From positions 1-60,573 of IMG/VR virus record IMGVR_UViG_3300017764_000003: a DNA stretch of 60,573 nucleotides. One strand, given 5' to 3'. Positions 888 to 55,540 of the stretch are shown piece after piece (within the stretch, counting starts at the first letter, position 1; the number at the start of each line of letters is the position of its first letter). The notes under the pieces were generated by a model. That model did no database searches, was not told the DNA's origin, and saw nothing but the letters and a program-made list of their open reading frames with translations. The DNA comes from a virus. The translations under genes and the position numbers were made by a program.

Positions 888-1327
888 TGGATGATTCATT
901 ATGGAATTACGAGAAAGGATTCAAGATATATAGGAATCTACATAAAGATTGTTGGAGTGTTCAGGCTTACAACAAAGACAAGAAAGGTTGGAGGTTATAT
1001 GCCCATGAGTATTGCTTGAAGGGTATCAACGCTAAGTTCTTGGTAAATGAGAAAGCAAGACAGAAAGTTATTAAAGAAAAGCGTAAGAATGTACACGCAT
1101 TTATTTGGGTTGATGAATATCATACAATAGATGTTAGATACACAGAGAATGCTGATACATTAAAAGAGATGGGATATCTTAGAGGAAAGTACAATCCTTA
1201 CAAGCATGATTCATTCATAGAAGAAAGAGCTTCTCTTCCATTGTTTGACTGCCCTGAAGTGTATCTTCAATGGAGTCATTTATACTTTCAACCTAACTTA
1301 CTTGATAGATATATACTGCAAGTGTAA
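887..1327 (+). CDS. hypothetical phage protein, 146 aa
   Basis: Starts at ATG 887 behind an in-gene SD (AAGGAGGTGTACTA). The N-terminal half has the pattern GFKIYRNLHKDCWSVQA followed by a basic stretch (residues about 57-70, ARQKVIKEKRKN) and the segment HAFIWVDEY. I have a faint memory of similar phage proteins of unknown function but cannot name a family. It is the last gene of the SD-led series at the left end. Its final codons run into the TGCA-box element that precedes the replication operon. Confidence 0.65.
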   Translation: MDDSLWNYEKGFKIYRNLHKDCWSVQAYNKDKKGWRLYAHEYCLKGINAKFLVNEKARQKVIKEKRKNVHAFIWVDEYHTIDVRYTENADTLKEMGYLRGKYNPYKHDSFIEERASLPLFDCPEVYLQWSHLYFQPNLLDRYILQV

Positions 1328-1402
1328 TGCAAATGCATTCCATGTGTATTGCAATTCAATGCAAGGTGCAATGCAAAGAAAAAGAAAGAAAGAAAGAAAT
1401 AA
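1326..1402 (+). promoter_or_regulatory. TGCA-box/GAAA-tract element, copy 1
   Basis: Between the stop of the upstream gene and the DnaA-like gene lie repeated TGCA-centred boxes (TGCAAATGCA at 1328-1337, then ATTGCAAT, AATGCAAGG and TGCAATGCAAAG), followed by a purine tract of GAAA repeats to about 1399. The near -7 sequence TAACTTTA follows at about 1400. The same arrangement, in the same order relative to the downstream gene, recurs on the minus strand at 22893-22977 and 54930-55002. I infer an activator-dependent promoter for the replication operon. The repeat is seen in the sequence; the function is inference. Confidence 0.6.
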
Positions 1403-1423
1403 CTTTATTAACCAAAAAATATT

Positions 1424-1453
1424 TTGGTATTACTAAATAAAAATTTATATTTG
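1424..1453 (+). promoter_or_regulatory. Bacteroidota-type promoter before the replication operon
   Basis: TTG at 1424-1426, a 19-base spacer and TATATTTG at 1446-1453 match the Bacteroidota vegetative promoter pattern (TTG, about 19-20 bases, TAnnTTTG). The predicted start of transcription falls almost on the ATG at 1457 or 1463, so the mRNA may be leaderless or nearly so. This fits the lack of any Shine-Dalgarno sequence for the downstream gene. Confidence 0.6.
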
Positions 1454-1456
1454 TGT

Positions 1457-1804
1457 ATGGATATGATACCCCCAATGACTTATGTAGGTCTAGAAGATAC
1501 TGTACTAGGTGCTACTGAGATGTACCCTAGAATAGTTAATACGGTTGCCGATGAATTTAATATAACAACTAAGCAAATGTTCCTTAAGTCTAGGAAGAGA
1601 GAGTTGGTTGATGCTAGACGTTGTGTTATGTTTATACTCAGAGAGCATTATGAACTTACCTATAGCACAATAGCAAAAAAGTTTAAGTGCGATCACTCAA
1701 CTATTATTCATGGCGTTAGGAAAACACATGAGTTAATGAGATTCGATTCTGAATTTCAAAGAAAATTTATTTCAATTACAAACAAACTTAATATTCAATT
1801 TTAA
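1457..1804 (+). CDS. stand-alone DnaA domain IV-like DNA-binding protein
   Basis: The 115-aa product matches the C-terminal double-stranded DNA-binding domain of DnaA. SRKREL (residues 45-50) corresponds to the conserved basic loop, RRCVMFILRE (54-63) to the recognition-domain helix, and DHSTIIHG (79-86) to the DnaA signature usually written DHTTV. The AAA+ ATPase domain is absent, so it can bind DNA but not form an ATP-driven initiator filament. The likely role is origin binding or transcriptional control. The start was set at ATG 1457 rather than the upstream TTG, because a good promoter runs up to this ATG. ATG 1463 is an alternative. Confidence 0.8.
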   Translation: MDMIPPMTYVGLEDTVLGATEMYPRIVNTVADEFNITTKQMFLKSRKRELVDARRCVMFILREHYELTYSTIAKKFKCDHSTIIHGVRKTHELMRFDSEFQRKFISITNKLNIQF

Positions 1805-1815
1805 ATTTAATTATC

Positions 1816-2736
1816 ATGAACAGTTTAAAGATCGCTCAAGAGAGCATGGACAAAGGAGAGAGAATTGTACAAATGTTAGAACAATTCGGATTATTTTGGA
1901 ACGTAAACAAGGTGCAGTTATTAACACCTGATGAAGAACCTACTGTATTCTATGGCACACAAAGGGAAGACAATCGTAATGTTTTTGCTTGTGTCAAGGA
2001 TGGATATAAAGTTCTACAGAATTGGGAGTTAGCTGAGATGGTTACAGAAGTTGCAGGTAACTTCGATATGAAGGTTGCTAAAGGCGGAATGTTTAACGGA
2101 GGTGGAAAGGTATACCTTCAGGTGCACACAGGAGATATCCAAGGGCTTGGAGAGAACAATGATACTATCAATAAGTACATTACAGCCCTGAACTCACACG
2201 ATGGTAGCAGATCAGTAGGGTTTGGTAAGACTAACGTAACTATAAGTTGCCAAAATACTTTTCATCAGGCTTACCAAGACATGGAAAATAAGATCAGGCA
2301 TAGTGCTTCTATGAGAGAACGTATTGATGCCATGATGAGAGACTTCGAAAAGCTACAGGTAGAAGAGAAAAATCTTTACGATACTTTCTTCAAGCTAGCT
2401 AGCGAGCAAGCTACTCCTGAACATATCAAGGATGTAGTTAAGATGTCTACAGGTATTGACTTAATGCTTACACATGAGCAAGCATCAAACAATCATAGCA
2501 CTTACCAAATCAATCAGGCTAAACAGCTAACAGCTAGGATTACTGAAGAGATGTCATACAAAGGTCAAACTTTATGGGGCTTATTCTCAGGTGTAACTAA
2601 GTATACTAACAGAGATATCAGAGTTGCCAATAGAGAGAATGCAACTCTTGAATCTAAGTTCTTAGGATCTGCAGGTAAGATTGATAATAACGCAATGAAT
2701 TATGTTGCTAAGAAAGTCTTATTAGAAACAGTTTAA
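1816..2736 (+). CDS. DUF932 (phage/plasmid-like) protein
   Basis: The 306-aa product has features of the DUF932 family common on phages and plasmids: an N-terminal part with FYGTQREDNRNVF and VKDGYKVLQNWEL, a central GGGKVYLQV with NDTINKYITALNSHDGS, and TISCQNTFHQA. These resemble the family core in which a protein of unknown biochemical role sits beside recombination genes. The C-terminal third is helical. It starts 11 bases after the DnaA-like gene with no SD (AAATTTAATTATC before ATG), typical of this operon. Confidence 0.8.
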   Translation: MNSLKIAQESMDKGERIVQMLEQFGLFWNVNKVQLLTPDEEPTVFYGTQREDNRNVFACVKDGYKVLQNWELAEMVTEVAGNFDMKVAKGGMFNGGGKVYLQVHTGDIQGLGENNDTINKYITALNSHDGSRSVGFGKTNVTISCQNTFHQAYQDMENKIRHSASMRERIDAMMRDFEKLQVEEKNLYDTFFKLASEQATPEHIKDVVKMSTGIDLMLTHEQASNNHSTYQINQAKQLTARITEEMSYKGQTLWGLFSGVTKYTNRDIRVANRENATLESKFLGSAGKIDNNAMNYVAKKVLLETV

Positions 2737-2748
2737 TTCTTTAGAGTC

Positions 2749-3189
2749 ATGGATAAACCTATCAAGAAGTATCACAAGTGGTCTAAAGAAGACACAGCAT
2801 GGCTATCCTGCAATATTAGTGGCGAGTATTCTAATAAAGAACTCGCTACTATTTTAGGCAGGTCTATTGATTCTGTTAAAACTAGAAGAAAATACTTGAA
2901 GTCAGGTATAATTAAACCTGATCATAGTATGGTGACAGCAATAAATGTTCATGGAGTTAGTAGCTATAAAGCATGGGATGAGCATTCATCTTATTGGATT
3001 AACACTACAATAACAAAAGGAATTGTATATAATAAAGTTCCTATTGTGGATGAGAACGACTGCAAGAATGTTAGTTGTAAAACTCCATATCAATATAGTG
3101 CTTCAATAATTAGAACTCAACTTTTAATTCTATGCTTGGTTGTATTCGTATGGACATTAATTTTTATTTTACTAAATGTTTTTTTATAA
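2749..3189 (+). CDS. Myb/SANT-like HTH protein with C-terminal membrane helix
   Basis: Residues 9-50 form a Myb/SANT-like helix-turn-helix: Trp11 and Trp18 in the first helix, then YSNKELATILGRSIDSVKTR, a pattern of DNA-binding domains. Residues 124-146 are a strongly hydrophobic helix (LLILCLVVFVWTLIFILL) with only four residues after it. The visible layout is a cytoplasmic DNA-binding head tethered to the inner membrane by its tail, a rare design. It might anchor replicating DNA or act as a membrane-bound regulator; both are inference. The stop overlaps the next ATG (TAATG). Confidence 0.7.
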   Translation: MDKPIKKYHKWSKEDTAWLSCNISGEYSNKELATILGRSIDSVKTRRKYLKSGIIKPDHSMVTAINVHGVSSYKAWDEHSSYWINTTITKGIVYNKVPIVDENDCKNVSCKTPYQYSASIIRTQLLILCLVVFVWTLIFILLNVFL

Positions 3190-3446
3190 TGGAAGATGTA
3201 ATTTTCAATGACGTTGGAGAGAGTAAACCAAAATACTCCAACTTAAAAGAACTTCTTAAAGAAGAAGGGAGAACTCAGACATGGCTTATCAAGAAGCTAG
3301 AAGAGTATGGTATTAAAAGAGACAAAGCACAAGTCTCTCAGTATTGCAGAAATATATTCAGACCAAGAGATGAGTATGTTATTAGAGCAATAGCTGAAAT
3401 TATAAATGTGGATTTTCAAATAGTTAACAATTGTTTTAGTAAGTAA
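3189..3446 (+). CDS. XRE/Cro-like HTH regulator, 85 aa
   Basis: ATG 3189 is chosen over the earlier in-frame ATG (3132) because it sits in a TAATG stop-start overlap and the extra upstream residues would lie inside the membrane-helix coding region of the previous gene. The body contains a helix-turn-helix: TQTWLIKKLEEYGIKRDKAQVSQYCRN, with a following helix EYVIRAIAEIINV, like Cro/C1-type repressors. It may autoregulate the replication operon. With no integrase in the window, I do not read it as a lysogeny repressor. Confidence 0.7.
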   Translation: MEDVIFNDVGESKPKYSNLKELLKEEGRTQTWLIKKLEEYGIKRDKAQVSQYCRNIFRPRDEYVIRAIAEIINVDFQIVNNCFSK

Positions 3447-3447
3447 T

Positions 3448-4374
3448 ATGGAAAACTTAAATTTAATTAGATCCATTGATACAGTTATTGATGGACAAGG
3501 GATAGTACACCCTAAAGGATCAGGATTTGGTGGCAAATATAACAGACTGCCTGCTATTTATAGAGAGAAGTTATCGAAGGCTATACCTTCAAACATGATA
3601 TCTAAACACCCAACTAAAACATTCCTTTCTGTTATCAAAGCTATTGCTATAGTAGAAAGAATGAATGATGTGTTTGGAACTAATGGTTGGAACTTAGAGC
3701 ACAACGTAGTTGAGATGACAACTCTTAAAGTTAAGGAAGGTGAAGTGCCTTACGTAGTTATGAAGGGTAGAATTTATGTACGTGAATTTGATTTGTATAC
3801 ACCTTATCAATATGGTGGTCATCAACTAGGCGGTAAAGGTACTGAGCCTGCAGATGGATACAAGTCAGCAGTAACAGACATTCAATCTAAGTGCTCTTCA
3901 TATTTAGAGATTGGTATTCAAGTGTTTAAAGGTCAACCTAATTCTCAGGAGTATAATAAGTCTAAACGAAAAGACGAGCATGATGTTGAAGAAGCTACGC
4001 AGAATATGGTTGCAAAGGTTGTAGATGAAATGCTTGAACCTGTTAAGAAGAAAGCACCTGTAAAGAAAAAGAAAACTGCCAAGAAGAAAGAGGTGGTTGC
4101 TGAAGTTGCTGAAGCAGAGGCTGCTGTTGCTGAAGTATGTGATGATAAGTCAACCTTACAGCAAGAGAGTGATGATTTAATCACTAAATTAATTGAACCT
4201 GTTAATGCAATAGAGGTAGCGGAAGAAAAGATTCTTAAATATAATACAGCAGAGGGGTTAAAAGATAATGCTACTGTAATTATATTTGATGCTCAAATGG
4301 ATGGAGCAACTGATCAAGAGTTATCTGATCTGAAGTCTGCTATAAATACTCGTTATAAAGAACTTTTAAAATAA
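3448..4374 (+). CDS. Rad52/22-like single-strand annealing protein
   Basis: The N-terminal half (residues about 30-165) shows the Rad52/Rad22-type single-strand annealing fold seen in many phages: TFLSVIKAIAIVERMNDVFG followed by GWNLEH, the strand-like YVVMKGRIYV, and GGHQLGGKGTEPADGYKSA with the helix VTDIQSKCSSYLEIG. It would anneal complementary strands during recombination-dependent replication. A linker rich in Lys, Ala and Glu (residues about 200-235) leads to a short C-terminal helical domain. It lies next to a phage-specific unknown gene, SSB and nucleases, as expected for a recombination cassette. Confidence 0.8.
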   Translation: MENLNLIRSIDTVIDGQGIVHPKGSGFGGKYNRLPAIYREKLSKAIPSNMISKHPTKTFLSVIKAIAIVERMNDVFGTNGWNLEHNVVEMTTLKVKEGEVPYVVMKGRIYVREFDLYTPYQYGGHQLGGKGTEPADGYKSAVTDIQSKCSSYLEIGIQVFKGQPNSQEYNKSKRKDEHDVEEATQNMVAKVVDEMLEPVKKKAPVKKKKTAKKKEVVAEVAEAEAAVAEVCDDKSTLQQESDDLITKLIEPVNAIEVAEEKILKYNTAEGLKDNATVIIFDAQMDGATDQELSDLKSAINTRYKELLK

Positions 4375-4895
4375 TGTATATGAATGATGTAAATGATTTA
4401 CCGTTCCCTGAAAAGGAAGGAGGATACAACATAGGTTTGTTTGTTGAGAAACAAGAAACTTATAGCAAGGAATCGCTTAAGCTACAAGCAAAGAAAGAAA
4501 TGAATGCAGTTATCGAAGGTATTGTCGAGCCTGCTGAAGTCTATGCAAAGTTAAAAGCTATCAGCCATTTTATTGATGAGTGTATTAATGAAATAAAAGA
4601 AGATGTTATTACAGAGGTTGATAAGTATGGAAAGGAAGGAGTTAATGTTTGTGGTATTCCATTGATAGTAAAGAATCAAGGTAAGAAGTATTCCTTTGAA
4701 GACAACGATGATTGGATTGAGTTAGATGATAAGATCAAAGACCTTACTGATAAGAGAAAGGACATTGAATCTAAGATGAAGGCTCTAGTTGGTACTGCAG
4801 GATATGTAGACAGCGATTCAGGAGAGATGTTAGCACCTGCTAGGATAGTAAGTGAAGGAAAGACAATAGTTCAAGCAACAATACCTAAAAAATAA
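4374..4895 (+). CDS. hypothetical recombination-module protein with N-terminal DLPFPE motif
   Basis: Starts in a TAATG overlap with the annealing-protein gene. The 173-aa product begins with the acidic motif NDLPFPEKEGG, which resembles the tip of SSB C-terminal tails but is placed at the N-terminus. A largely helical, charged body follows; residues about 110-145 (DDWIELDDKIKDLTDKRK) look like a coiled coil. Similar proteins accompany phage annealing proteins, but I cannot name a family. Coupled translation suggests a partner of the annealing protein or SSB. Confidence 0.7.
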   Translation: MYMNDVNDLPFPEKEGGYNIGLFVEKQETYSKESLKLQAKKEMNAVIEGIVEPAEVYAKLKAISHFIDECINEIKEDVITEVDKYGKEGVNVCGIPLIVKNQGKKYSFEDNDDWIELDDKIKDLTDKRKDIESKMKALVGTAGYVDSDSGEMLAPARIVSEGKTIVQATIPKK

Positions 4896-4904
4896 TATAA
4901 GATT

Positions 4905-5573
4905 ATGAGTAGTAAGAACACATTTTATTTTTCTCACGATGCAAATGCTCACGAGGATGATAAGATTATCTGTCTTATGTCTCATTATGGTAGCCAAGGT
5001 TATGGATGGTGGTGGATTATGGTAGAAGTTTTATTCCAACAAGAAGGATGTAAGCTAGACCTATCTAATAAGACTACCATCCCATACCTTTATAGAATGC
5101 TATGGGATATGCCTATGAAAGATATAGAATCTTTTATTGATCAGCTAGTAGACTTTGGTTTATTAGTTAGAGAAGGAGATGTTGTATACTCTGAGTCATT
5201 ACTTAAAAGAAATGATAAGATAGATGATCTTAGAGAGAAGAGAAGAGCTGCTGCTAATGCTAGATGGAATAAAAAGAAAGAGACTAAGGAAGAGATTCCT
5301 AAAAACTCTAAGCCTTTAGATCCAAGCAAGACTATAGCGGTATTAAAAGACGACAACTTATTTTCTATTTTTGCAATTGAACTTAGTAAACACGAAATCT
5401 ATTCTGCTTTACCCAAAAGACAAGTCTATTCAGAGAGAGAGTCATGTCTTAATTGGTTAGCCTCTAAAGGCACAATCAAAAAAGACTACAAAGCTTTCTT
5501 TAAGAATTGGATTAAGAAAAGAATAGAAGATAGTGGATTAAATACTAATAATAATCAAACAATGGTCTACTAA
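4905..5573 (+). CDS. DUF4373-like (Lin1244/Lin1753-type) replication protein
   Basis: The N-terminal region (residues about 5-100) starts FYFSHDANAHEDDKI, followed by HYGSQGYGWWWIMVEVLFQ and a wHTH-like section ending SLLKRND. This is the signature I associate with the DUF4373 or Lin1244/Lin1753-like N-terminal domain of phage replication initiators. A basic segment (REKRRAAANARWNKKK, residues about 110-125) follows, typical of this family. It lies directly before the primase-helicase gene, so an origin-binding or helicase-loading role is likely. Confidence 0.75.
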   Translation: MSSKNTFYFSHDANAHEDDKIICLMSHYGSQGYGWWWIMVEVLFQQEGCKLDLSNKTTIPYLYRMLWDMPMKDIESFIDQLVDFGLLVREGDVVYSESLLKRNDKIDDLREKRRAAANARWNKKKETKEEIPKNSKPLDPSKTIAVLKDDNLFSIFAIELSKHEIYSALPKRQVYSERESCLNWLASKGTIKKDYKAFFKNWIKKRIEDSGLNTNNNQTMVY

Positions 5574-5574
5574 T

Positions 5575-7407
5575 ATGAACGCAGATAAACTATCATCACT
5601 TGGTATTAAGTTACCGAGAAAAAATGGGCAGGTAAAAGTTACCTGTCCACAATGCAGTCACACAAGAAAACCACAGAATAGAAAAGAACCCTGCTTGTCT
5701 GTTAATATAGACGAGGGAATATATAATTGTCACAACTGTGGTTGGCAAGGATCTGTAGCTGATAACAAATACGAAGTACCTGATTGGAATTATACTCATG
5801 ACGTTGTACCTGAATCTAAGTGTATGGATTACATGATAGAAGAAAGAAAGCTATCAAGGCTTACACTATCTGCATTCAACATACGTCAAGAGAAACAATA
5901 CATTCCTAAAGAAGGTAAGGAAGTTGACTGTATACAATTCCCTTACTTTAAAAATGGTATTGTAGTTAACATAAAGTATAGATCACTTGGTAAAGGATTT
6001 AGAATGGTTAGTAATGCAGAACTAACAATGTTTAATCTTGATTGTATTGATACTGAATCAATAACAGAGTCAGCTATAGTTACAGAAGGAGAGATTGATG
6101 CGATGTCTTTTTATGAGGCAGGATTTGATACCGTTATATCTGTACCTAACGGTGCAAGTAAAGGTAATAACAACCTGCAGTATATAGATAACTCTGCCTT
6201 ACACTTAGAGAAAGTGGAGAAGTTCTACTTAGCATTAGATAAAGACGAAGCAGGTAAACAACTAGAGAATGAGATAGCAAGAAGACTAGGTAAAGATAAG
6301 TGTTGGATTGTTGATTTTCCTAATGGTTGCAAAGATGCTAATCAAGTTTTATTAGAACATGGATACAATGCTTTACAGCAGGCTATAACTAATGCAAGAC
6401 CTATGCCTATTGAAGGTGTAATAAAAGCTAACGACTGTAGAGATTCTGTTTATGAACTGTATAGAAACGGTGTTGATAGAGGTGATCTATTAGATGTAAA
6501 AGGCTTTGATGATTTGTTATCTTTTAAGACATCTATGCTGTACATAATTACAGGTATACCTACTCATGGTAAAAGTTCTGTATGTAATTGGATGGAGTGC
6601 TTGTTAGCTGCTCGTAGCGGTTGGAAGTTTGCGATCTTTTCTCCTGAACATTATCCATTAGATTATTTAATATATAGATACGCTGAGATTCTAGTTGGTA
6701 AAGGGTTCTTTCATAACTCAGAAACAAGAATGGGTGAACATGAATTAGGTCTAGCACTAGATTTTATTAATGAACATTTCTTTTTCATAAGACCTACTGA
6801 AGGTATGTATACTATGGCTGAGTTGTTAGACATAGCTAAGTCTTTAGTTCTTAGACATGGAGTTAAAGGATTTACTATTGATCCATGGAATACTATAAAG
6901 CATGACTATAACTCAGGTCTTACAGAGACACAGTACATAGAGGTTGCCTTAAATGAACTGACTATATTTAAACAAGTTCATGATGTTGGTGTGTTTTTAG
7001 TTGCACACCCTCGTAAGATGGCTAAGATTAAAGACATGAATCATCCTATGCATGGGCTTCATGAAGTTCCTACCTTGTATGATATATCAGGTAGTAAATC
7101 ATTCTATGATAAGGCTGATGTAGGCATAACAGTATATAGAAACTTTACAACTAAACAAACAACTATATACGTACAGAAGGTTAAGTTCAAACATCTTGGT
7201 GAGGTTGGTATGCAGAACTTTAATTACGAAGGATGTAGTAGATACTCGCCTACTAATGAGGTTCAAGATTATCTAGACTACAGAGATAAAACACCTGAAG
7301 CTTATATAAGAACCCCACTTCCACAGACAGCTATCAATAGGAATTGGTTTGATGATAATGAGGATAGAGTTGATCAACATGAACAAGAAATAGATACACC
7401 TTTTTAA
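5575..7407 (+). CDS. T7 gp4-like primase-helicase
   Basis: A 610-aa bifunctional replication enzyme. Residues 24-55 hold a primase zinc ribbon (Cys24, Cys27, Cys52, Cys55). A TOPRIM catalytic core follows, with TEGEIDAMS at 170-178 and LDKDEAG at 221-227. The C-terminal half is a RecA-type hexameric helicase with Walker A GIPTHGKSS (327-335), Walker B-like GFTIDPW (432-438) and VFLVAHPRK (473-481). It makes primers and unwinds DNA. The extreme C-terminus is acidic and ends EIDTPF, like the SSB tail and like the acidic polymerase-binding tail of T7 gp4. The gene starts 2 bases after the DUF4373-like gene. Confidence 0.92.
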   Translation: MNADKLSSLGIKLPRKNGQVKVTCPQCSHTRKPQNRKEPCLSVNIDEGIYNCHNCGWQGSVADNKYEVPDWNYTHDVVPESKCMDYMIEERKLSRLTLSAFNIRQEKQYIPKEGKEVDCIQFPYFKNGIVVNIKYRSLGKGFRMVSNAELTMFNLDCIDTESITESAIVTEGEIDAMSFYEAGFDTVISVPNGASKGNNNLQYIDNSALHLEKVEKFYLALDKDEAGKQLENEIARRLGKDKCWIVDFPNGCKDANQVLLEHGYNALQQAITNARPMPIEGVIKANDCRDSVYELYRNGVDRGDLLDVKGFDDLLSFKTSMLYIITGIPTHGKSSVCNWMECLLAARSGWKFAIFSPEHYPLDYLIYRYAEILVGKGFFHNSETRMGEHELGLALDFINEHFFFIRPTEGMYTMAELLDIAKSLVLRHGVKGFTIDPWNTIKHDYNSGLTETQYIEVALNELTIFKQVHDVGVFLVAHPRKMAKIKDMNHPMHGLHEVPTLYDISGSKSFYDKADVGITVYRNFTTKQTTIYVQKVKFKHLGEVGMQNFNYEGCSRYSPTNEVQDYLDYRDKTPEAYIRTPLPQTAINRNWFDDNEDRVDQHEQEIDTPF

Positions 7408-7416
7408 AATAAAATT

Positions 7417-7491
7417 ATGAGTAAAGATGATTTAATATTAGCAGGCATATGTTTGTGGACAGCAATTGTTATAATATCATTGTTTATATAA
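7417..7491 (+). CDS. 24-aa membrane microprotein
   Basis: ATG 7417 opens a frame of 24 codons: a charged start (MSKDD) followed by one continuous hydrophobic helix (LAGICLWTAIVIISLFI). It fills the gap between the primase-helicase and the next gene with correct spacing. A second microprotein of the same design occurs at 10802-10891 in the same operon. The function is unknown; small membrane peptides can modulate host membrane complexes or exclude other phages. Supported only by frame, position and hydrophobic pattern. Confidence 0.45.
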   Translation: MSKDDLILAGICLWTAIVIISLFI

Positions 7492-7502
7492 AAGAAAGAA
7501 AT

Positions 7503-7661
7503 ATGAATAGAATCATAGACATTAAGACAGGTAAGATATATAAGTCTGCTAAAGAAGTTTCTGATGAGTTTAATATACCACATTCAACTATAAGATGTTG
7601 GACAAATGGTTCTAGAAAAAACTATTCTACATTTAAAATTTACAAAGAAAAAAAGATATGA
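7503..7661 (+). CDS. 52-aa NUMOD1-like DNA-binding module
   Basis: ATG 7503 follows AAAAGAAAGAAAT. The protein reads as one complete NUMOD1-type module, the helix-turn-helix DNA-binding unit usually found fused to homing endonucleases. The start IIDIKTGKIYKSAKEVS and the downstream FNIPHSTIRCWTNG match the family rhythm: a tyrosine, Ser/Ala-Glu helix, then a second helix before an Asn-Gly turn. No nuclease domain is attached or adjacent. A longer in-frame start at 7449 would overlap the microprotein at 7417 and is less likely. Its stop overlaps the SSB start (ATGA). Confidence 0.6.
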   Translation: MNRIIDIKTGKIYKSAKEVSDEFNIPHSTIRCWTNGSRKNYSTFKIYKEKKI

Positions 7662-8068
7662 TTAATAAAGTAATTTTAGTAGGAAACTTAGGATCAGATC
7701 CTAAGACCTACACGTTTGATGATGGTAACATGGTTACTAATTTTAATTTAGCTACTTCAGAGAAGTATACTAATAAAAAAGGTGATAAGGTAGACAATAC
7801 CGAGTGGCATAACGTCACTACATACGGTAAGACTGCTGAACTTGCAACGCAATACCTATCTAAAGGTAGTAAGATATACTTAGAAGGTAAGATTAAGACT
7901 AGCAAGTACGAGAAAGATGGCGAGGAAAGATACAAAACAGAAATAGTTGCTAACAACATTACGTTTTTGTCTACTCAAAGAGACACTAATCAAGATGCTA
8001 CTGCTACTGCTACTGTTACACCTACGGCTTCTGTAGTATTAAATGAGTCTGATGACTTGCCTTTTTAA
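7658..8068 (+). CDS. ssb: single-stranded DNA-binding protein
   Basis: A 136-aa bacterial-type SSB. The OB fold begins MINKVILVGNLGSDP and includes FNLATSEKYTNKKG, TEWHNVTTYGKTAELA and YLSKGSKIYLEGKIKTSKY, the classic strand order. A Thr/Ala-rich linker leads to the acidic tip SDDLPF, the docking site for SSB-interacting enzymes. It coats single-stranded DNA at phage forks and recombination intermediates. It is coupled to the upstream NUMOD1-like gene by ATGA. Confidence 0.95.
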   Translation: MINKVILVGNLGSDPKTYTFDDGNMVTNFNLATSEKYTNKKGDKVDNTEWHNVTTYGKTAELATQYLSKGSKIYLEGKIKTSKYEKDGEERYKTEIVANNITFLSTQRDTNQDATATATVTPTASVVLNESDDLPF

Positions 8069-8083
8069 AATTTAGTTTTTTCA

Positions 8084-8145
8084 AGGGGAGGGGTTTTTAT
8101 TTTTAATTATTTAAAAAAGTGCGTGTTTGTTTGAAACCTCTCCCT
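8084..8145 (+). promoter_or_regulatory. long-range hairpin between ssb and next gene
   Basis: The left arm at 8084-8096 (AGGGGAGGGGTTT) is complementary to the right arm at 8134-8145 (AAACCTCTCCCT), with one bulged G and one G-U pair. This gives a stem of about 12 pairs around an AT-rich loop of about 37 bases. The G-rich run is striking in so AT-rich a genome. It may mark a processing site, partial terminator or control element between ssb and the MazG region. The loop is too long for a standard intrinsic terminator. Confidence 0.45.
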
Positions 8146-8159
8146 GATAAAAATATATT

Positions 8160-8324
8160 ATGTCAGATAAAGAAATACAATTGACTGCTATCTTTGCAGA
8201 GATTGCATCAGCAGTTATAACTCTAGAAAAAAATAATCCTAACAATTATGAATTAGGTAAGTCTGTTAGAAAATTAATTAACAATAAATTAAAACTTAAA
8301 GAAGATGAAGTGGGAAGATTATAA
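8160..8324 (+). CDS. hypothetical 54-aa protein
   Basis: ATG 8160 opens a frame of 54 codons that overlaps the next gene by 20 bases, in line with the close packing here. The peptide is helical: an N-terminal hydrophobic helix (LTAIFAEIASAVITLEK) and a basic C-terminal helix (SVRKLINNKLKLKED). I do not recognise it. Confidence 0.55.
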   Translation: MSDKEIQLTAIFAEIASAVITLEKNNPNNYELGKSVRKLINNKLKLKEDEVGRL

Positions 8325-8874
8325 AGCAAATGCAATGAGAACTTTTGCTCATAACAATTCTATCAATATAGATGATGAGTTGTTTAATAAGAAGATGAAT
8401 GAACTACATTGCGTTATAGGAATAAGCACAGAAATTGCTGAGTTTATTCAAGCCATTGCAAACAATGATAAAGTAAATGCCTCTGAAGAAATAGGAGACA
8501 TCTTATGGTATACAGCAAATTTAGAAAGACTGTCTGTTCCAACAGGTCTTAGTTTTCCTTACGATGAGAAAGGTATTACTGTATTTGCAGATGAGTTTCT
8601 AGTGTCTGTTCAAAATTTACTTGACACTTATAAGAAAGGAGTATACTATGGTTCTGATATAGACTATGAAGCAGTATTGTTTTACATTGAAGAGATTAAA
8701 AAGACTTGTGTTGGTATGCTTGTTATGAATGAGATTAATCCTGAAGATGTAATGGAGACTAACATTAATAAGCTAGCTATAAGATATCCTGATAAGTTTA
8801 CAAGAGAGGATGCAGAACAAAGAGATCTATTTGCAGAACGTAAAGTATTGGAAGATGGCAACTCCAATATTTGA
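8305..8874 (+). CDS. MazG-like nucleotide pyrophosphohydrolase
   Basis: The 189-aa product carries the all-alpha NTP pyrophosphatase (MazG-like) motif: STEIAEF (Glu43, Glu46) and SEEIGDILWY (Glu62, Asp65), the ExxE...ExxD magnesium-binding pattern. These enzymes hydrolyse (d)NTPs or related nucleotides to monophosphate and pyrophosphate. In phages they are thought to tune nucleotide pools or alarmone levels. The C-terminal half (SVQNLLDTYKKGVYYG onwards) is helical and longer than a minimal MazG domain. Confidence 0.75.
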   Translation: MKWEDYKANAMRTFAHNNSINIDDELFNKKMNELHCVIGISTEIAEFIQAIANNDKVNASEEIGDILWYTANLERLSVPTGLSFPYDEKGITVFADEFLVSVQNLLDTYKKGVYYGSDIDYEAVLFYIEEIKKTCVGMLVMNEINPEDVMETNINKLAIRYPDKFTREDAEQRDLFAERKVLEDGNSNI

Positions 8875-9277
8875 ATCTAAGAATGACTTAAATAATGAGA
8901 AAGATGTAGCACTAAGACTAGCTAGCAGGAGAAATCTTCAGCTAGTTAAGCTACGTTTAGATGGACTAGATTATATGTTAACAGATGTTAATGGTAAAGG
9001 TGTTTGCTTTCTTGAAATCAAATGCTTTAACTCTAATCATAATTCATTTAATACATTGCCCCTGAACTTATTGAAGTACGAAAAACTTAAGATTCATGAG
9101 AGACTTTTGCCTACGTTCTTCGTAATAAAGTTTGCAGATGATGTAATAACTTACATAGACTCTAAAGAAATAGATGGATATTTAAAAGAGATGAAAAGAA
9201 AAGTAGTAAGACCAAATGCAGCTTATGATGTTGAAGTATGCATATTTATAAATAAAAATAAATTCACTAAACTATGA
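8855..9277 (+). CDS. putative PD-(D/E)xK nuclease
   Basis: ATG 8855 (MATPIFESKND) is preferred over the upstream in-frame ATG at 8810 because it reduces the overlap with the MazG-like gene to 20 bases. The protein shows LDYMLTD (Asp39) followed 14 residues later by FLEIKCF (Glu54, Lys56). This Asp-x(n)-Glu-x-Lys arrangement is the active-site pattern of PD-(D/E)xK nucleases, with an upstream helix suited to the fold. It may cut recombination intermediates or host DNA. Weak motif, so the call is tentative. Confidence 0.55.
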   Translation: MATPIFESKNDLNNEKDVALRLASRRNLQLVKLRLDGLDYMLTDVNGKGVCFLEIKCFNSNHNSFNTLPLNLLKYEKLKIHERLLPTFFVIKFADDVITYIDSKEIDGYLKEMKRKVVRPNAAYDVEVCIFINKNKFTKL

Positions 9278-9780
9278 AAGTAGTAGCTTTAAAAAACATG
9301 GATGATGCCATACTTGGTATAGATGCAATATCCGACAGATTAATTTATTCAGTAGAAACACTTCAAGATCTTTTAGTAAGAGACTTTAATATGACAGTTG
9401 GCGATGCTGTTGATCATATTTCCAATACACTTATAGTCCCTCCTGATGAGATGGAAGAAGACGAACTAGACTTGTACCCTATATTTTCTTTTCCTTTCAA
9501 TACAACGGATGAAAAGCAGCCCCTTAAAGAAAGAAATATTGAATTAAGAAACTATTCTATTTCAGATATAAAAGAAGCTTTCTTTAAAGTCTTCTGTGAA
9601 TACGAAACAAGCAAAGAGAATCAAATTTTATACAGCTCTGTAGCGTTAGATGCTTACAAAATTATACACAGGAACTATGTAAACTCTATAAAAAGTAAAG
9701 TAACTGAGATTCTTAAAGACAATCCTAATCATACGGATCTCTCTCTTGATTTAATTAATCTTATTAATAAATTAGACTAA
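9274..9780 (+). CDS. hypothetical protein, 168 aa
   Basis: Coupled to the upstream gene through ATGA. The product is acidic in the middle (DEMEEDELDLYP, residues about 60-72) and otherwise helical. I see no motif that assigns a function. It stays in the replication operon, one base before the next gene. Confidence 0.65.
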   Translation: MKVVALKNMDDAILGIDAISDRLIYSVETLQDLLVRDFNMTVGDAVDHISNTLIVPPDEMEEDELDLYPIFSFPFNTTDEKQPLKERNIELRNYSISDIKEAFFKVFCEYETSKENQILYSSVALDAYKIIHRNYVNSIKSKVTEILKDNPNHTDLSLDLINLINKLD

Positions 9781-9781
9781 C

Positions 9782-10120
9782 ATGGTATCTAGTTCACAGC
9801 TACCTTTTCCTGAAGAAGAAGTAAGAGGTAGGCGTAGTATATCTTTATCTACATGGAAAGTTAGGGAGGATGTAACTCGTAAAGGTTCACGTAGAAAATC
9901 ATATAACAAAAAAGTTATTACTAACGTAGTAGTAATTGGTAACGACAAAAGAAAGATTTCAAAAAATAGTATATTTGTTTCTAAGGTTTATCAAAGGTTC
10001 TTTGGTAAAGACAAATGGAAATCTAAATTCGAAAAAAATTGTTTAGAAATTATTGATATTACATTTGACTCTTATCATGGAGAGTCTGTAGCACCTGAAG
10101 GAGATACTGTATTATTGTGA
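9782..10120 (+). CDS. hypothetical basic protein with N-terminal LPFPEEE motif
   Basis: A 112-aa basic protein. It begins SSSQLPFPEEEV, an acidic LPF motif like that of the 173-aa protein at 4374, followed by RGRRSIS and a Lys/Arg-rich region (TRKGSRRKSYNKK). This suggests nucleic-acid binding together with docking to the SSB-tail partner. No family is recognised. Its stop TGA overlaps the GTG start of the next gene. Confidence 0.65.
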   Translation: MVSSSQLPFPEEEVRGRRSISLSTWKVREDVTRKGSRRKSYNKKVITNVVVIGNDKRKISKNSIFVSKVYQRFFGKDKWKSKFEKNCLEIIDITFDSYHGESVAPEGDTVLL

Positions 10121-10539
10121 GTTGGGCAAAAAAAAATAACAAACCTGTTAAGCATAAGTATAATGCACAAAAGACTGTAGTAGATGGGATTACATTTGAT
10201 TCTAAACTAGAGTCTTTTATGTATGGAAGGCTTAAGCAATTGAGTATTCCTTTTGACTTCCAATTTGAAGTAGAACTACAGCCTGCGTTTAGAGAGCCTA
10301 AAGGTACAGCCGTAAGAAGAATGTACATGAAAATAGATTTTGTTATCAGAGTAAATGGTGTAGCTTATTTTGTTGACACTAAAGGATTTGCTACCCCTGA
10401 TGCTAAGCTTAAGTATAAGATGCTTAAGTATATTATATTTAAGTCAGGAAGAAATGATGTAGTCCTATTCTGTAAAAATCAAAAAGAAGTAAATAGTTTT
10501 TGTAACAACATACTAAATGAATATGAAAAAGACACATGA
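10117..10539 (+). CDS. DUF1064-family PD-(D/E)xK endonuclease
   Basis: Uses a GTG start at 10117 inside a GTGA overlap. The product has the hallmarks of DUF1064 phage nucleases: a start KHKYNAQKTVVDGITFDSKLE (Glu32 in the first helix), then DFVIRV (Asp74) and VAYFVDTKGF (Asp87, Lys89), followed by KLKYKMLKY. The E...D...DxK set is a complete PD-(D/E)xK site. These enzymes are thought to resolve branched DNA or degrade host DNA. It sits in the recombination operon. Confidence 0.85.
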   Translation: MSWAKKNNKPVKHKYNAQKTVVDGITFDSKLESFMYGRLKQLSIPFDFQFEVELQPAFREPKGTAVRRMYMKIDFVIRVNGVAYFVDTKGFATPDAKLKYKMLKYIIFKSGRNDVVLFCKNQKEVNSFCNNILNEYEKDT

Positions 10540-10792
10540 AAAAGACAAGCCAAATGAATTCATATTGTTTCCAAACAATAACTATAAAGAAGGTGGATCA
10601 CTTCCTAAATGGATAGGTAAGATAATGCTTGAAGATGGAATTGTATTGAGAATGGCTGCTTGGGAAAACAAGCTAGCAGATGGAAGAATGTATTTAGGAG
10701 GAAAGGTTAATAAGTTTATGACTAAAGATCAGGTTAAGCAACAAGAATCTGAAAGTAAACAAGAAGAACCTGATATTGATTTACCTTTTTAA
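10517..10792 (+). CDS. hypothetical 91-aa protein with SSB-like C-terminal tip
   Basis: Overlaps the nuclease gene by 23 bases. The start is ATG 10517, with ATG 10523 two codons later as an alternative. The body (NEFILFPNNN, WIGKIMLEDGIVLRMAAWEN, MYLGGKVNKFM) looks like a short all-beta fold compatible with an OB-type domain. The C-terminus is acidic and ends DIDLPF, almost the same tip as SSB. It could be a second, shorter ssDNA-binding or SSB-mimicking protein. The tail is seen; the role is inferred. Confidence 0.65.
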   Translation: MNMKKTHEKDKPNEFILFPNNNYKEGGSLPKWIGKIMLEDGIVLRMAAWENKLADGRMYLGGKVNKFMTKDQVKQQESESKQEEPDIDLPF

Positions 10793-10801
10793 AACTATAA
10801 A

Positions 10802-10891
10802 ATGAAAGATTTTTTAATTGGTGCTGTATATGGATTTGGATTAACTCTATATATAGCTTTAGTAACTATATTTTTAATTATAATTAAATAA
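10802..10891 (+). CDS. 29-aa membrane microprotein
   Basis: A 29-codon frame from ATG 10802 encodes MKDFLIGAVYGFG followed by a hydrophobic helix (LTLYIALVTIFLIII) and a terminal Lys. It fits between neighbours without gaps, two bases before the next ATG. It matches the design of the 24-aa membrane peptide at 7417. Function unknown. Confidence 0.45.
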   Translation: MKDFLIGAVYGFGLTLYIALVTIFLIIIK

Positions 10892-10893
10892 CA

Positions 10894-11070
10894 ATGACTG
10901 AGAGATTCCCTTGTGATGATGAACACAAACCAAAAAAAACATTAGTTGAAAAGATGAATGAAAAGTATGAGAAACTTTTTGGTAAGCTTTGTGACTGCGA
11001 AGTTTACGAAGCTTTTTGTAGATGTGATAATCAAAATAAATTTAAATATGAAGACAGAGAGAGAAATTAG
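10894..11070 (+). CDS. 58-aa cysteine-containing small protein
   Basis: ATG 10894 follows the membrane microprotein by two bases. The peptide is charged and contains the cluster LCDCEVYEAFCRC (four Cys within about 13 residues, from about residue 32), with one more Cys near the N-terminus (FPCDDEHK). The spacing suggests a small metal-binding knuckle. The end overlaps the next gene by 23 bases. Not recognised. Confidence 0.5.
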   Translation: MTERFPCDDEHKPKKTLVEKMNEKYEKLFGKLCDCEVYEAFCRCDNQNKFKYEDRERN

Positions 11071-11233
11071 AGATCATTACGAAGATCAAATGGCTAAAGC
11101 AGATAACATGATGGAAGCTGCTATGATTAAAGGAGAGATGAACCTTAAAATTAAAAAACTAAAAGAAGGTCAAGAAGTTGTTTCTGAAAAACCAAGCGAC
11201 TCTGACTATGAGTGCTTTGGATGTGGGGCTTAA
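11048..11233 (+). CDS. 61-aa helical protein ending in CFGCGA
   Basis: Start set at ATG 11048 (MKTEREIRDHYEDQM). The longer frame from 10958 would cover most of the preceding gene in another frame. The protein is a charged amphipathic helix (MAKADNMMEAAMIKGEM) and ends with a CxxC pair, CFGCGA. It may be a metal-dependent dimeric adaptor; nothing firmer can be said. Confidence 0.55.
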   Translation: MKTEREIRDHYEDQMAKADNMMEAAMIKGEMNLKIKKLKEGQEVVSEKPSDSDYECFGCGA

Positions 11234-16756: not shown

Positions 16757-19700
16757 TTAGTGTATTACTCCTGAATAAATTGCATCAAAGATTGAGCCGT
16801 TTCTAATTAATGTAACATAGTGTTTTTTATTTGCTCCGCCTGTAGAGAAATCAGGAACACCTGCATCTCCCCAATTAAATTGGTTACCCCATGCATTTAC
16901 GTTTCTGCTACCTGTTCCATCTTGTACAAAACATATAGCATATACAGCACCATCTTTAGCGTTTGTAGGGTTTGCTACTCCTGTAGTTGCTGATGTCATA
17001 GTCCATTGCTGTACGTTACCATCATCCATATCAAACGAAGCAGATGAACCTGAACCTGCATTATGCATTCCACTATTGTTATATATTTGACCATCAAGCT
17101 TTATGTTTTTAGTAGTATAAATTTCTCCACTAAATTTGTTTTGATCTGTACTTGTCTGTAATATTCCGTATTGATCAGTAACAGTAGCTCCACTCCCAAT
17201 ATCTGTATCCCCTATAAAGATTTGTGCTGATCTAGTTACAGAAACTCCTGCTGCTAATTTTATTTGCCTTGCAGAGATATTATAAACATTCTCTGCATCA
17301 TAGTTTACTTTTACATAACCTCTATATGAATTAATAACTTCTTCACTTACTGAATAAAAGCCTCCAACATTAGATGATATTGCAGTTGTTGTAGTACCTG
17401 ATCCCATTGCTGCTGTTGGAACTACTGAAGTCTTTAAAGTTGCAAACTCATTACCTGATGTAGGAGTACCATATGTAGCATTTAAAAGAAAAGCTTGAGA
17501 AGTAATGGTTGCTGCACTATAAGTTTTACTTGCTTGCAGCCCCATTGATGTTTCTTCAAGTATACTCTCGTCTAGTGTATCGGTAGTTGAGTTCCATTTA
17601 GTTAAAGATCCATCAGTATAACTTCCTACTTTAGCATATCCTGAAATAGCAGACCACTCAGCATTACCTGCTGCATCTGTTGATTTTAAAAATTGACCTG
17701 CTGTTCCTGCTGTATGATTAAGCTGAATCTGACCACCAAAGTAGTTCTTATCGTCTGTACCTTCTTGATAGATACCGTATTGAGTATGACTGCCTGATGG
17801 AACAATTGCACTAGGATCTATTTGTATTGCCGCATAAGTCCCATTATTAGCTAGTCCTCCTGATCCTGAAAATATAGGTTGTGTAGTTTGTATCCCATAA
17901 ACCTTATCAGGTGTTCCTCCAATATTTTGTTTAAATACTCCACCACCAACTATTCCTCCACTTACATTACTACCTGAATATGGATGTGCCATAATACCAT
18001 AGGTATTACGAATAGTTGATCCTCCTGTAGATGGATCACTTTTAGCATGAAAATATCCACCTATTGGATTTATAACTTCATCTTCAATTACAGCAGTACC
18101 AACAACACCCATTGCAGATGATCCAACACCTTCACTAACCGTATCTCCTACAGAACCTCTAATTCCTATAGAACCTAGTTGAGCACCTGCATCAGCATTA
18201 GCATCTATACCATAGTCAAATAAGTGATTTGCAGTTGCATTATCATTTTTTACATAAAGTCCTTTCTCTGTAGTTCCATTTATATTAACTGTTGTATTTG
18301 CTACACGAGCACCATCTACAGCTACACCACCTGTAAAAAGATGTTGACCATTTTCATCAATTTTGTATCTTTCTGTAGGTGTCGTTTCTCCAATAGCATT
18401 AGTATCAATAGTATAATAACATCCTTGTGCAGTTGAACTAAATGTTTCTGCAGCTCTAACTTCTATCAACGCACAAGTAGATACACCACCTACAGAATCA
18501 ATAGAACCTATTATTCTATGTGCAGATATTAAATCCCCATTTATTAAAGCTGAATGTGAAGCTATTGTACCTCTATACTTTGTACTTACAATTTCAGAAC
18601 CAACAGCAGCAGTACCATAAGTGCTAAGAAGCAAGTTAGAATCATTTCCTTGTCTTACATTCTTAATATAATTATTGTGAATCTCAGTATAATCACTATC
18701 ACTACTTGATACAGTTATCTTTGTACCATCCCAAGTAAAGTTAGTGTCACCTGTAGTTATTTCATCAGCATCTAATACAATTTTTGATGGCTCTGCAGCT
18801 TGTTGTACATTTATATTAAATGTACTTACCGAAGTAAATCCTACATAACCTCTTCTTGTGCCATCAGAATTATTCCAATTCATGTAATTACTACCACTTG
18901 TGTCCTGTCCAACAGTATTTACAAGAGCAACTTTACCATCTGAAGAACTTTCTACATTAAGTGAACCTTCAATTACAGCACTACCACCTACAGTTAATTT
19001 TTTAGTGGCAACAGGTGCTGTTCCTATACCTACATTTGTTCCATCATCTTGTATTATACTTTTATCTAATGTATTAGTAGTAGCATTCCATCTTGAAACA
19101 TAACCACTTTGATAACTTCCTACTTTAGCATAAGTTCCTAAATCAGTTATTTGAGACTCTGTAATACTCAAAGCACCTTCGTGTTGAGTTACAGAAGATT
19201 CTGTTATGTTTGCATTAGGAACATTTGCCCAAGTTACTGCTGAAGTTAAATCATTAGTCTCTGTAAATGATGTTAAGTAACCTGCTAAACTATGATCTCC
19301 CCAAGAATAAGCTGTATCCCATTGACCAACTTTAGTATCGGTAATAGTATTAGAACCCATGTCTATAAAATTACCATTAGCATCTAAAGTGCCACCTAGC
19401 TGTGGAGTAGTATCCTCAACTATATTGTCTATACCTGTAGAAGGTAGTGTTTCCCATGTAGCATTACCATCTGCATCAGATGTAAGAACTTTGCCTACGC
19501 CTAATGGAGAAGCACTACTATTTGTATATGTATATTTTAATTGTTCAGCATATGTTAAAACACCTGATGCATCTATATCAGCAATAACACCTGATGCATT
19601 CTCTATTTTTAATACTGTATCACTTGCAGCAGATATATGTAGTTTTGCATCTATTGTTGCAGGACTTCCTATTCCTATTCTAGAACCTGTGTTTTGTAAG

Positions 19701-22877: not shown

Positions 22878-22892
22878 AATAATTCTTTTTTA

Positions 22893-22977
22893 CAAATATA
22901 AATATTTCTTTCTTTTTTTCTTTATTTGTTTGTATTGCATATTGCAATGCACCTGATATGCAAGTGCATTGCAATTG
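22893..22977 (-). promoter_or_regulatory. TGCA-box/GAAA-tract element, copy 2, with -7 box
   Basis: Read on the minus strand: TGCA boxes (TTGCAATGCACTTGCATAT, then GGTGCATTGCAATATGCA), a GAAA-type purine tract, then the -7 box TATATTTG (plus 22893-22900), 15 bases before the ATG of the 248-aa gene. No TTG lies at the -33 distance; the purine tract occupies that place. The fibre genes would therefore start from an activator-dependent promoter. The element fills the gap after the stop of the 3554-aa gene. Confidence 0.65.
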
Positions 22978-22985
22978 ATATTTTA

Positions 22986-25900
22986 CTATTCTCCTAATAG
23001 CATTTTTCTTAATTCTTTAATTAACTCTTCCTCTTTGTTTTTATTATCTAAGTCAGTAGTAAATTTTTTATTATTTTTTATGCTATCAATATTTTGCTTT
23101 ACATTCTCTGTTAAATTCGGTATATATTCAGGAGCATATAATCCTTCTTTTATTTGAGAAACTGTTGGTTTACTTGCTCCTTTTCTTTTTCTAAGAATAT
23201 CTTTAAACAATTCTTCGTCTTCCTTTAATACGTCAAGTACCCCTTGTTGAGTTTCAGTTCCTACTAAAAATGCTTGAAATTGATTTTCCATAAGATTTTT
23301 ATAGGCAAGATATACTAATGGATTAGTTGAAGCTAAAGAGTTTTTATCTTTCTTTAAGTCTAATAGCTCTTTCTCTTTTTCTCTTATGTATTCTCTTTGT
23401 GCTCTTTTTATTACAGACTTAACAGGAATTGAATTTTCTCTAGCAACTCTTAAAAAGTCTGCAAACCTGTGTGGATCTTTATCTTCAAATGATTCTTTAA
23501 ATCCTTTTATTACTTCAAACTCATTAGTTCCATTTTTAATTGGAGCAAAGAATGTTATAGCTCTATTTGTCCATGTTTCAGTAGGAGTATACTTTGGTTG
23601 AAATGCAGACCTTATTTGATTTTGTAAAAAGAAAGGAGTTGTACTTAACCCAAGTTCAGATATAATTCTTATTGCCTGATTACCAACATTATCATCTTGT
23701 AAGTCATACAAATCATATCCTGAAGGAGACATACCAAATAAAACTCTACTTACTGCTTGAGGTAAAGGAGAACTTTTGCTAAGTAATCTTCCTAAAGGAT
23801 TAAATATTAGTTCAGGCAATTCTTTCATTTGCTTTCCTAAGTGAACATAATCTGCTTTACCATCTTCAGGATTAACTCCTATAAATATTCCTAAACTATT
23901 TCTTCCTGTTAATAAATCAGGATCGTTTTTCCACATAGGTCTACCTGTCATTAACTTACCATAGAAGCTTAGTTTTTCAAACTCTTTTTGTTCTTCTTCA
24001 TCTTTTTCTCCGAACCAAGCAGTAGTTGCCATGTTAATTAAGTTCATAAACATATATTGTTTTAAGGCAACACTAGCCCAAAATCTATATCCTGCTTTTC
24101 TTACAAACTTATTAGCAAATTCATTATTTGATCCTACATCAATTCCTAATCTTTTAACATAGTCTCTAGCATTTCCACTTGGATCTAATGTTTGGAATAT
24201 TTTTGCTTCAGAAAATCCTGCAAATGGAGCTAATGCTTGCTTAGCAGTAGAAACAGTCCAATCAGGAGATAGTAAAACTAAAGATGCTAGTCTTAAAGTC
24301 TTTGGATTAACTGAAAGTAATTGCCAATTCTGCCCACCAAAAGTATTATCAACGTGTTTAGCAATTGCCCTACCTACAGCTTCTAAATCTGTTTTGTATT
24401 GGTTTACTGTTATCTTATCACTATCTAGTTTTTTACTTAAGTTTAATTCTGCATCAGCATATAATGCTTGGAATGCAACTAACTTATAGTTGTTATGCAT
24501 ATAGTCCCATAAGAAATCATCCCATCTATTAGTAATTTTTCTAACTCCTTTATCTTTTCTAAATGGATTTAAATTTGTTTTAAACGAACTATCCCAAGTA
24601 TATTCTAGTTCATCAAGAAGAGTTTCGTGAAGTTCTAAATGCTGATCAGGAGCAGACTTAACTTGTAGTCCATGTTTAATTGCTAACTCAGTATTTACAG
24701 ATTCGCTTTCTTTAAATATTAAAAAGTCATCTGTTTTAAATCCTGTAAACAATTTAAGTAAGTTAGCTCCATATTTAATTCCTCTAGTAAAAGAGTCAGG
24801 TGTAGATAACAATGTTTCTGTTAGTGCTAAATGGTGAAAAGCAGACATTGTTAAGTTTATTTTTTTAGTAAAGTTATTCCATCTTTCTAAAGCTAAAAAT
24901 ACTTTTTGCTTATACTCTAACTTAATATCATTTAAAGGATTAAGTAGTTCTAAAGCAGAAATTTCGTTTACTGATCTACCTGTTTCTTCCAAATATTTTT
25001 GCTCCCAATTAAATGTTTTAACACCTACAATTCCTTGAATCTGTTGATATACTTTAGGATGAACATAAATATACTTAGATACCCATTGACCTTTTTCTTC
25101 TTCTTTAAATAGATCTTTTTGTTTTTTGGTTTTATACATATCAAAGATGTGTGCCCTAAATCTAGGGTTATCTATTTTTTTATATGAAGGTGGTATGTTT
25201 CTACTTCCTTCAGTATATGCTAATTTAGCACCACTTTGATTTCCATCTACAGTTAGTTCTAATAAAGAGTTTGTGAAGTTTTTATTTTCAATAAAGTTAT
25301 TCGTTCCTTCACTATAAAGCTTCATTAATTTAGAGGCATCTAATGTAACAGGATCAAATCCCATTCCAATAGCTTCTTCATAGTTACCCCATTTATTACC
25401 TTTTGCATTTTGTGATAATGTATTATTAACAAACTTTTTAAAACTTTCTTGATTCTTATATTGTTCATCAAATTTTATGATCTTATAAAAATGAGGAAAG
25501 TAGCTTGCTGCTAAATCTACATTAGTAGAAAGCTGTTTGTTATTTTGCATATACTTACCAATAGCTTCTATTTCTGCTTTTACTAAAGGTTTAAATTTAT
25601 TTATTGCATCAGTAGGGTTATCAATTAAATATTGAACTTCATTTCTAAATTTTTCGTTTTTATCTACTGTTCCTTTTTTAAAGTTAGTTTTTGATGGCAC
25701 ACTTTTAGATCCATCTAAAATAAATGTTAAAGCATTTCTTTCTGCTTCAGTCATTTCTTCTGACATTCCTCTAGCTAATTTTTCTAACCTACGTCTTCTA
25801 ACTTCAATGTTTCCATATCTGCTATACATTAGTTTAGTTACTTCGTCTTTAGCTATTCTAAGAAGTCTCTTTTCAAAAACAGTTTTAGCACCACTATTTA

Positions 25901-54722: not shown

Positions 54723-54929
54723 ATACTAATATACTAATAATATTATGCTTGTACGCATGAGAGCATCACTTTGTTACTCTGAGTAATACATCTTTTTTTG
54801 ATAATCGCCTGATAATCAACTACTTCTTGATTATCCCCCTATATATATTGTTATTGGTATATAATATATACTATAGACTATAAACTATTCTTTACTGTTA
54901 ATCATTTACTTATAGGCATTAACTTCCCC

Positions 54930-55002
54930 TTAAAGTATCTTTCTTTATTTCTTTCTTTCTTTGCATACCACCTTGCATTACATATGCTATGCACTTGCAT
55001 TA
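54930..55002 (-). promoter_or_regulatory. TGCA-box/GAAA-tract element, copy 3 (late promoter)
   Basis: On the minus strand: AATGCAAGTGCATAGCATAT, then TAATGCAAGG and GGTATGCAAAG, then GAAA repeats, then TACTTTAA (plus 54930-54937), a near match to the -7 box. It has the same order as copies 1 and 2. It faces the late block (HNH, TerL and structural genes), so it probably is the main late promoter. The leader to the first ATG is about 200 bases long and contains GATAATC and GATTATC repeats. Confidence 0.6.
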
Positions 55003-55251
55003 CTTATGTATAAAGTTATTTATGTTATACTATTAATTGTTTATGCTTTGTTTATAATTGTTTACTGTAGAACTTAAACGCATTGGTATCTGTTAGGGTA
55101 GTATTAATATAGAATAGCCCCTCGACTTTTACAGGAAAATCAATAGTTTCAGAAGATCAACAGCCTAACGAAATAAAAGGATTCTTTTTATAACCGACTG
55201 ATTATCAATTAGTTATATGTACGGTTTTTACTCATATATATTTCCTTTAAT

Positions 55252-55502: not shown

Positions 55503-55540
55503 CGACTTTTATTTGGATAATTCAAAACTTTTATTGATAG

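Follow-up and report, generated by a model that had tools for sequence, protein, structure and literature searches.

Candidate origin-type modules of TGCA iterons and a GAAA-rich purine tract at three operon heads of a gut-type phage genome

A module made up of TGCA boxes in an array and a GAAA-rich purine tract downstream of them stands at the heads of three gene blocks in the window, i.e. the whole stretch of DNA that was analysed (a single virus record of 60,573 bases from a gut-type bacterial virus, with a GC content of mostly 30-36%). The same module is present in phages otherwise unrelated to the window at the protein level, and arrays of this kind are enriched inside replication-initiator genes. 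On the basis of sequence comparison, the three copies are read as origin-type iteron modules to which an initiator encoded by the phage, most likely its Lin1244_N protein, would bind, with an estimated probability of about 0.58. The module is read as origin-type because its parts stand in the same order as those of the lambda origin and because in relatives they also occupy the same position. Since the relatives keep this stretch inside the gene that starts replication, the copies of the window look like an origin copied to operon heads and not like a simple new promoter.

Three copies of the module and the gene blocks behind them

The module was read directly at 1326-1402 (plus strand), 22977-22893 (minus strand) and 55001-54930 (minus strand), in the intergenic gaps 1328-1456, 22878-22985 and 54723-56106, respectively. 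Each copy points into the gene block that it heads, copy 1 into the replication block, copy 2 into the fibre block and copy 3 into the late block (Table 1). A gapless 29-bp core (AATGCANNTGCATNNCANNTGNAWTGCAA) matched exactly at 1326-1354 (plus strand), 22942-22970 (minus strand) and 54973-55001 (minus strand), with no fourth match in the window. A perfect match of the core to the three copies was bound to result, since they had been used to build it, and the shuffled controls, a separate cluster scan and the recurrence in other phages were used as the independent evidence for the module. In the shuffled controls, the core was matched 0 times exactly and 0.01 times with 3 mismatches, and the sole additional match in the window at 3 mismatches overlaps copy 2 on the opposite strand. 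The cluster scan (at least 3 TGCA in 60 bp, then a 20-mer with 19 of 20 purines) returned exactly the three clusters in the window vs 0.0 in 20 shuffles, and it returned no array-plus-tract cluster in the early block from 56107. Both scans agree with the earlier note, which described three copies with one common order of parts, each pointing into the replication, fibre or late genes behind it, and none in the early operon.

The TGCA boxes lie mostly in a register of about 11 bp, with successive spacings also of 5, 6, 7, 10, 12 and 16 bp, and the GAAA-rich tract (A/G runs of 15-25 bases or more) follows each array on its 3' side on the same strand. An inverted repeat or hairpin after the tract, though seen in several in-gene modules, was not significant in the window copies and was dropped as a defining part. 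GAAA runs and AATGCAA are also found singly within genes of the window, as might be the case if the module had come about by chance from the composition of AT-rich DNA with GAAA runs; such an origin was refuted by the zero core or composite matches in the shuffles and by the fact that unrelated phages have the composite too, and its probability is taken as negligible.

Table 1. Positions of the module parts, promoter-like boxes, candidate genes and gene blocks in the window
Feature	Position	Strand	Remarks
Copy 1 TGCA iteron array	1315..1374	+	Core 1326-1354 exact, 0 in shuffles; 11-bp dyad register 1312, 1323, 1334, 1356
Copy 1 pure A/G tract AAAGAAAAAGAAAGAAAGAAAGAAA	1375..1399	+	25-base purine run, second longest in the window
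Copy 1 -7-like box TAACTTTA	1400..1407	+	Read directly; weak match
Canonical Bacteroidetes-type promoter TTG-N19-TATATTTG	1424..1453	+	Just downstream of copy 1
Copy 2 TGCA iteron array	22926..22977	-	Core 22942-22970
Copy 2 A/G tract AAAGAAAAAAAGAAAGAAA	22905..22923	-	
Copy 2 -7 box TATATTTG	22893..22900	-	Exact TAnnTTTG; 16 bases before ATG 22877
Copy 3 TGCA iteron array	54961..55001	-	Core 54973-55001
Copy 3 A/G tract AAAGAAAGAAAGAAATAAAGAAAGA	54938..54962	-	One T
Copy 3 -7-like box TACTTTAA	54930..54937	-	Misfits TAnnTTT and TAnnTTTG
DnaA domain IV (Bac_DnaA_C) protein	ORF 1424..1804, ATG 1457	+	Pfam E 2e-19; without AAA+ domain; first gene after copy 1
Lin1244_N (PF14297) replication-initiator-like protein	4905..5573	+	Pfam E 5e-13; PHROG 2562 'replication initiation protein' 2e-15; relatives in array-bearing phages
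DNA primase/helicase	5575..7407	+	PHROG 239, 2e-82; gene right after 4905-5573
Early block	Starts at 56107	+	
Replication block	1424-11233	+	
Late block	From 54722 down to 11387	-	

If the genome were circular, the early block could extend into 93-1327; no terminal repeat was found in the 60,573-base window. With the portal, capsid and terminase proteins, the collections searched yielded no close relative of the phage, apart from a 23% match for the portal in the Bacteroides phages BS-TP4 and BKO1-TP3. Three very long genes on the minus strand (22986-33650, 16757-21817 and 37537-42129, encoding 3554, 1686 and 1530 aa, respectively) gave no Pfam match. The N-terminus of the protein encoded at 2749-3189 (plus strand) matched the PHROG for D5-like transcription regulators, and this protein is a possible late regulator. 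Six GATTATC repeats, two of which are GATTATCAACGACTTA, were observed at 54806-55493 in the 1.38-kb gap 54723-56106.

The promoter consensus of the Bacteroidetes primary sigma factor is TTTG at about -33 and TAnnTTTG at -7 (PMC7366714). The window is like it in the TATATTTG of copy 2 and in the full promoter just downstream of copy 1, and differs from it in the purine tract, which lies in the -33 region of copies 2 and 3 with no TTTG there, and in the deviating boxes of copies 1 and 3. Of the three -7-like boxes named in the earlier note, only that of copy 2 is a true TAnnTTTG; the box of copy 1 is a weak match and that of copy 3 is a misfit. The absence of the -33 TTG, also stated there, holds for copies 2 and 3 with their purine tract, whereas copy 1 has a complete TTG-N19-TATATTTG close by. 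Another canonical promoter-like site (TTG-N20-TACCTTTG, 14592-14562, minus strand) was observed in an intergenic gap inside the minus-strand block.

An activator-dependent promoter, at which a phage activator on the TGCA boxes recruits host RNA polymerase to the -7 box, would have no role in replication, and recruitment across the purine tract would replace the missing -33 contact. It would account for the fact that all three copies head an operon and point into it, for the true box of copy 2 so close to an ATG and for the copies of temperate phages that precede genes, e.g. an operon of a small protein and an integrase or, in L157, a likely terminase operon. It fits poorly with the -7 boxes of copies 1 and 3, with the canonical promoter that copy 1 has of its own and with the relatives, in which the same iterons and tract are found in replication-initiator genes, where no operon starts. 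This reading is considered unlikely; the earlier interpretation is supported in part, but not in its view that the element is primarily a promoter, given the in-gene copies of the relatives.

The module in other phages and in initiator genes

Scans were run on IMG/VR with the core, on IMG/VR with the core plus the tract and on one genome per species with the core. By the core and composite scans, the module was found to recur in several phages otherwise unrelated to the window at the protein level, and in the motif scan of IMG/VR the composite element was seen to precede genes in these phages too, in line with its earlier description. L094, L096, L098 and L100 have a non-coding module directly behind a gene that ends like the S24-type repressor gene of L096, and the module precedes a small gene, a lipoprotein-like gene and an integrase gene (where the locus extends that far). 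One common copy is shared by L159, L160 and L162, and that of L160 precedes a small protein and an integrase; L154 and L158 also have the module upstream of a gene, and L157 has an array with a weak tract upstream of apparent terminase genes. The non-coding copies in other phages retain both halves, array and tract, and protein coding therefore does not explain those copies.

Three loci were obtained by the first exact composite scan, and the matches in L002 and L003 fall in one coding gene; the TGCA cluster of L058 also sits inside a gene. No conserved element was found in phages with 36-46% identical primase-helicases. In L163 (10399-10447, minus strand), an array and a purine tract were observed in the 3'-terminal part of a DnaA_C-type gene, which is directly followed by a MazG-like gene. 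Within the host order, the composite was matched in 2 of the 393 genomes, one match being in a Lin1244_N-type gene (L165) and the other looking like chance. A host-wide motif was ruled out by these figures, and the motif is phage-specific.

Arrays were also found between an S24-type repressor gene and the operon after it (G003, G005 and G006). Such a location would suit a repressor operator or an autoregulation site comparable to the iterons of plasmid rep genes, where the binder of the arrays would switch the operons off or keep them silent until dilution; in the window, the operon with the genes of both candidate binders lies behind copy 1, and the array of copy 2 lies directly upstream of the promoter box. 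This explanation, which leaves the array plus tract inside initiator genes unexplained, is regarded as improbable, even more so than the other regulatory or DnaA-based readings considered here.

One array inside a Lin1244_N protein gene was found in each of L097, G003, G005 and the Alistipes MAG G007, an array inside a DUF1376-type or similar gene in L093 and L156, and an array inside a Lin1244_N or DUF1376 gene in the G274 genome. The scans that led to these in-gene loci were blind, with the core and the composite of the window as queries. Together with its purine tract, the in-gene module of G003 (AATGCAATGCAC...CCAAAGAAAAGGAAAGAAAAGAAAATATATC, abridged) reads like that of the window, and so does the in-gene module of L133 (ATGATGCAAATAAAAGAAAAGAAAAAGAAATAAAAG).

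For a survey of Lin1244_N genes, 63 distinct genes were fetched by protein similarity, not by motif, together with 3-kb flanks. The array density was 1.70 hits/kb in the genes vs 0.016/kb in the flanks, and 74 array matches were seen vs 0.7 expected from codon-shuffled genes. An array was present in 30 of the 63 genes, and in 15 it was followed by a purine tract. Under synonymous codon shuffling, the in-gene excess was only moderate (32 seen vs 10.8 expected in the N-terminal half, 23 seen vs 14.8 expected in the linker); the protein sequence, with its conserved IAFALH motif, accounts for part of this excess, and the case for a function at the DNA level rests mainly on the non-coding copies for that reason. 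TGCA arrays were absent from most Lin1244_N genes in a sample of genomes taken across the order.

The initiator of Porphyromonas phage 005 is 51% identical to the L166 protein and is annotated as 'replication initiation protein', with a DnaC-like helicase loader after it. No TGCA array was found in this initiator gene; at the same gene position (L246, 9980-10070), it contains repeats of TACAA at distances of 11 and 10 bp, a purine-rich tract (AAAGATAAAGAT) and an inverted repeat (TCTACTTCTAACGAAGTAGA). The element is likely the origin of this phage, in which the layout of the module is kept and the letters of the iterons are changed. No direct account of Lin1244/DUF4373 initiators and their origins was found in the papers searched.

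Candidate binding proteins

The Lin1244_N protein encoded at 4905-5573 is most likely the best candidate binder of the arrays, ahead of the DnaA domain IV protein encoded at 1424-1804. Four HTH genes had been proposed as binders in the earlier note; none of them is the first candidate, and the one for the DnaA domain IV protein (ATG 1457) ranks second. The Lin1244_N protein reached 50 bits with PF14297 (curated cut-off 25), and only this protein, SSB and the DnaA_C protein of the window have relatives in the array phages examined. In the tree, it is on a long branch within a supported set of 15 array-bearing and 3 array-less genes. The structure model of the protein had a mean pLDDT of 77 (mostly 90 or more in the N-terminal part) and a winged-helix-like pattern of helices and strands, and its PDB matches were weak, with none below E 0.001. 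No array was found within the gene 4905-5573 itself.

If the arrays were instead the sites of the DnaA domain IV protein, the initiator would act only by contact. A Bac_DnaA_C protein is present in G000, G003, G004 and G005, and around Lin1244_N genes a DnaA domain IV gene was found at 24 of the 28 loci with arrays vs 14 of the 52 loci without arrays, many of the loci being related (p 4e-7 for the association with kinship of the loci ignored); the array plus tract of L163 lies in the 3' end of such a gene. The TGCA repeats are unlike TTATNCACA, however, and the Porphyromonas phage has a DnaA_C protein but TACAA and not TGCAA. Closer to DnaA-type boxes in appearance are the GATTATC(AAC) repeats of the gap between 54.7 and 56.1 kb, which could be sites of the DnaA domain IV protein. 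The assignment of the arrays to this protein is considered quite unlikely, and the Lin1244_N protein is preferred. In G003 and G004, DnaA domain IV was observed to be joined to a longer N-terminal part.

Proposed function and comparison with known systems

In the mechanism proposed for the origin-type modules, the initiator would be made from the operon behind copy 1 and would then fill the arrays, its binding sites being the TGCA repeats in their mostly 11-bp register, and the adjacent AT-rich, purine-asymmetric tract could be unwound or could shape the DNA. At least one copy would be opened by the initiator as an origin at which the primase-helicase, whose gene follows that of the initiator, would act. 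Copy 3 is probably the main origin, with its 1.4-kb gap, the further GATTATC repeats and the GC-skew minimum (near 55 kb, confounded by gene direction). The initiator on the arrays would also change the transcription of the operon headed by each copy, and through this effect middle and late expression would follow replication. A replication initiator that doubles as the switch of middle and late transcription, with the replication, fibre and virion genes depending directly on its binding, is proposed tentatively and is doubtful at present. Among the points against the origin reading are that a phage with one real origin would not need three copies at operon starts, an arrangement that looks more like regulation, and that the window's own initiator gene is without an array.

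The TGCA iterons plus the GAAA tract may provide a recognisable DNA signature for the origins of several gut Bacteroidales-type phage groups, with the Lin1244_N protein as the candidate initiator for those groups. Reuse of a replication origin module for regulation at several operons could also be tested with this phage and, if true, would explain how a phage with no recognised RNA polymerase gene could time its late genes.

The ParR/parC system has 11-bp direct repeats beside a promoter. The window is like it in the 11-bp repeats adjoining a promoter and differs from it in that no ParM/ParR-like gene was noticed in the phage. Initiators of the plasmid iteron class often regulate their own promoter as well. 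Plasmid iteron origins share with the window the direct repeats and the AT-rich region for unwinding, and the difference is that the window belongs to a phage genome with several copies across 60 kb.

The earlier note knew of no described element with such a layout; one has been published for the lambda origin, where gene O contains four iterons of 18 bp, to which the O protein binds, and an AT-rich stretch of 38 bp, which is unwound (PMC3349717, PMC7466680). The window is like lambda in its array of short iterons (an exact core in three copies) followed by an AT-rich tract, and the relatives are like lambda in that their module lies inside the initiator gene, beside a gene for a helicase loader or a primase-helicase. 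The window differs from lambda in the TGCA boxes, which are in a mostly 11-bp register and not in one of 18 bp, in the initiator, which is of the Lin1244_N/DUF1376 type, and in the three copies at operon heads with none inside the initiator gene.
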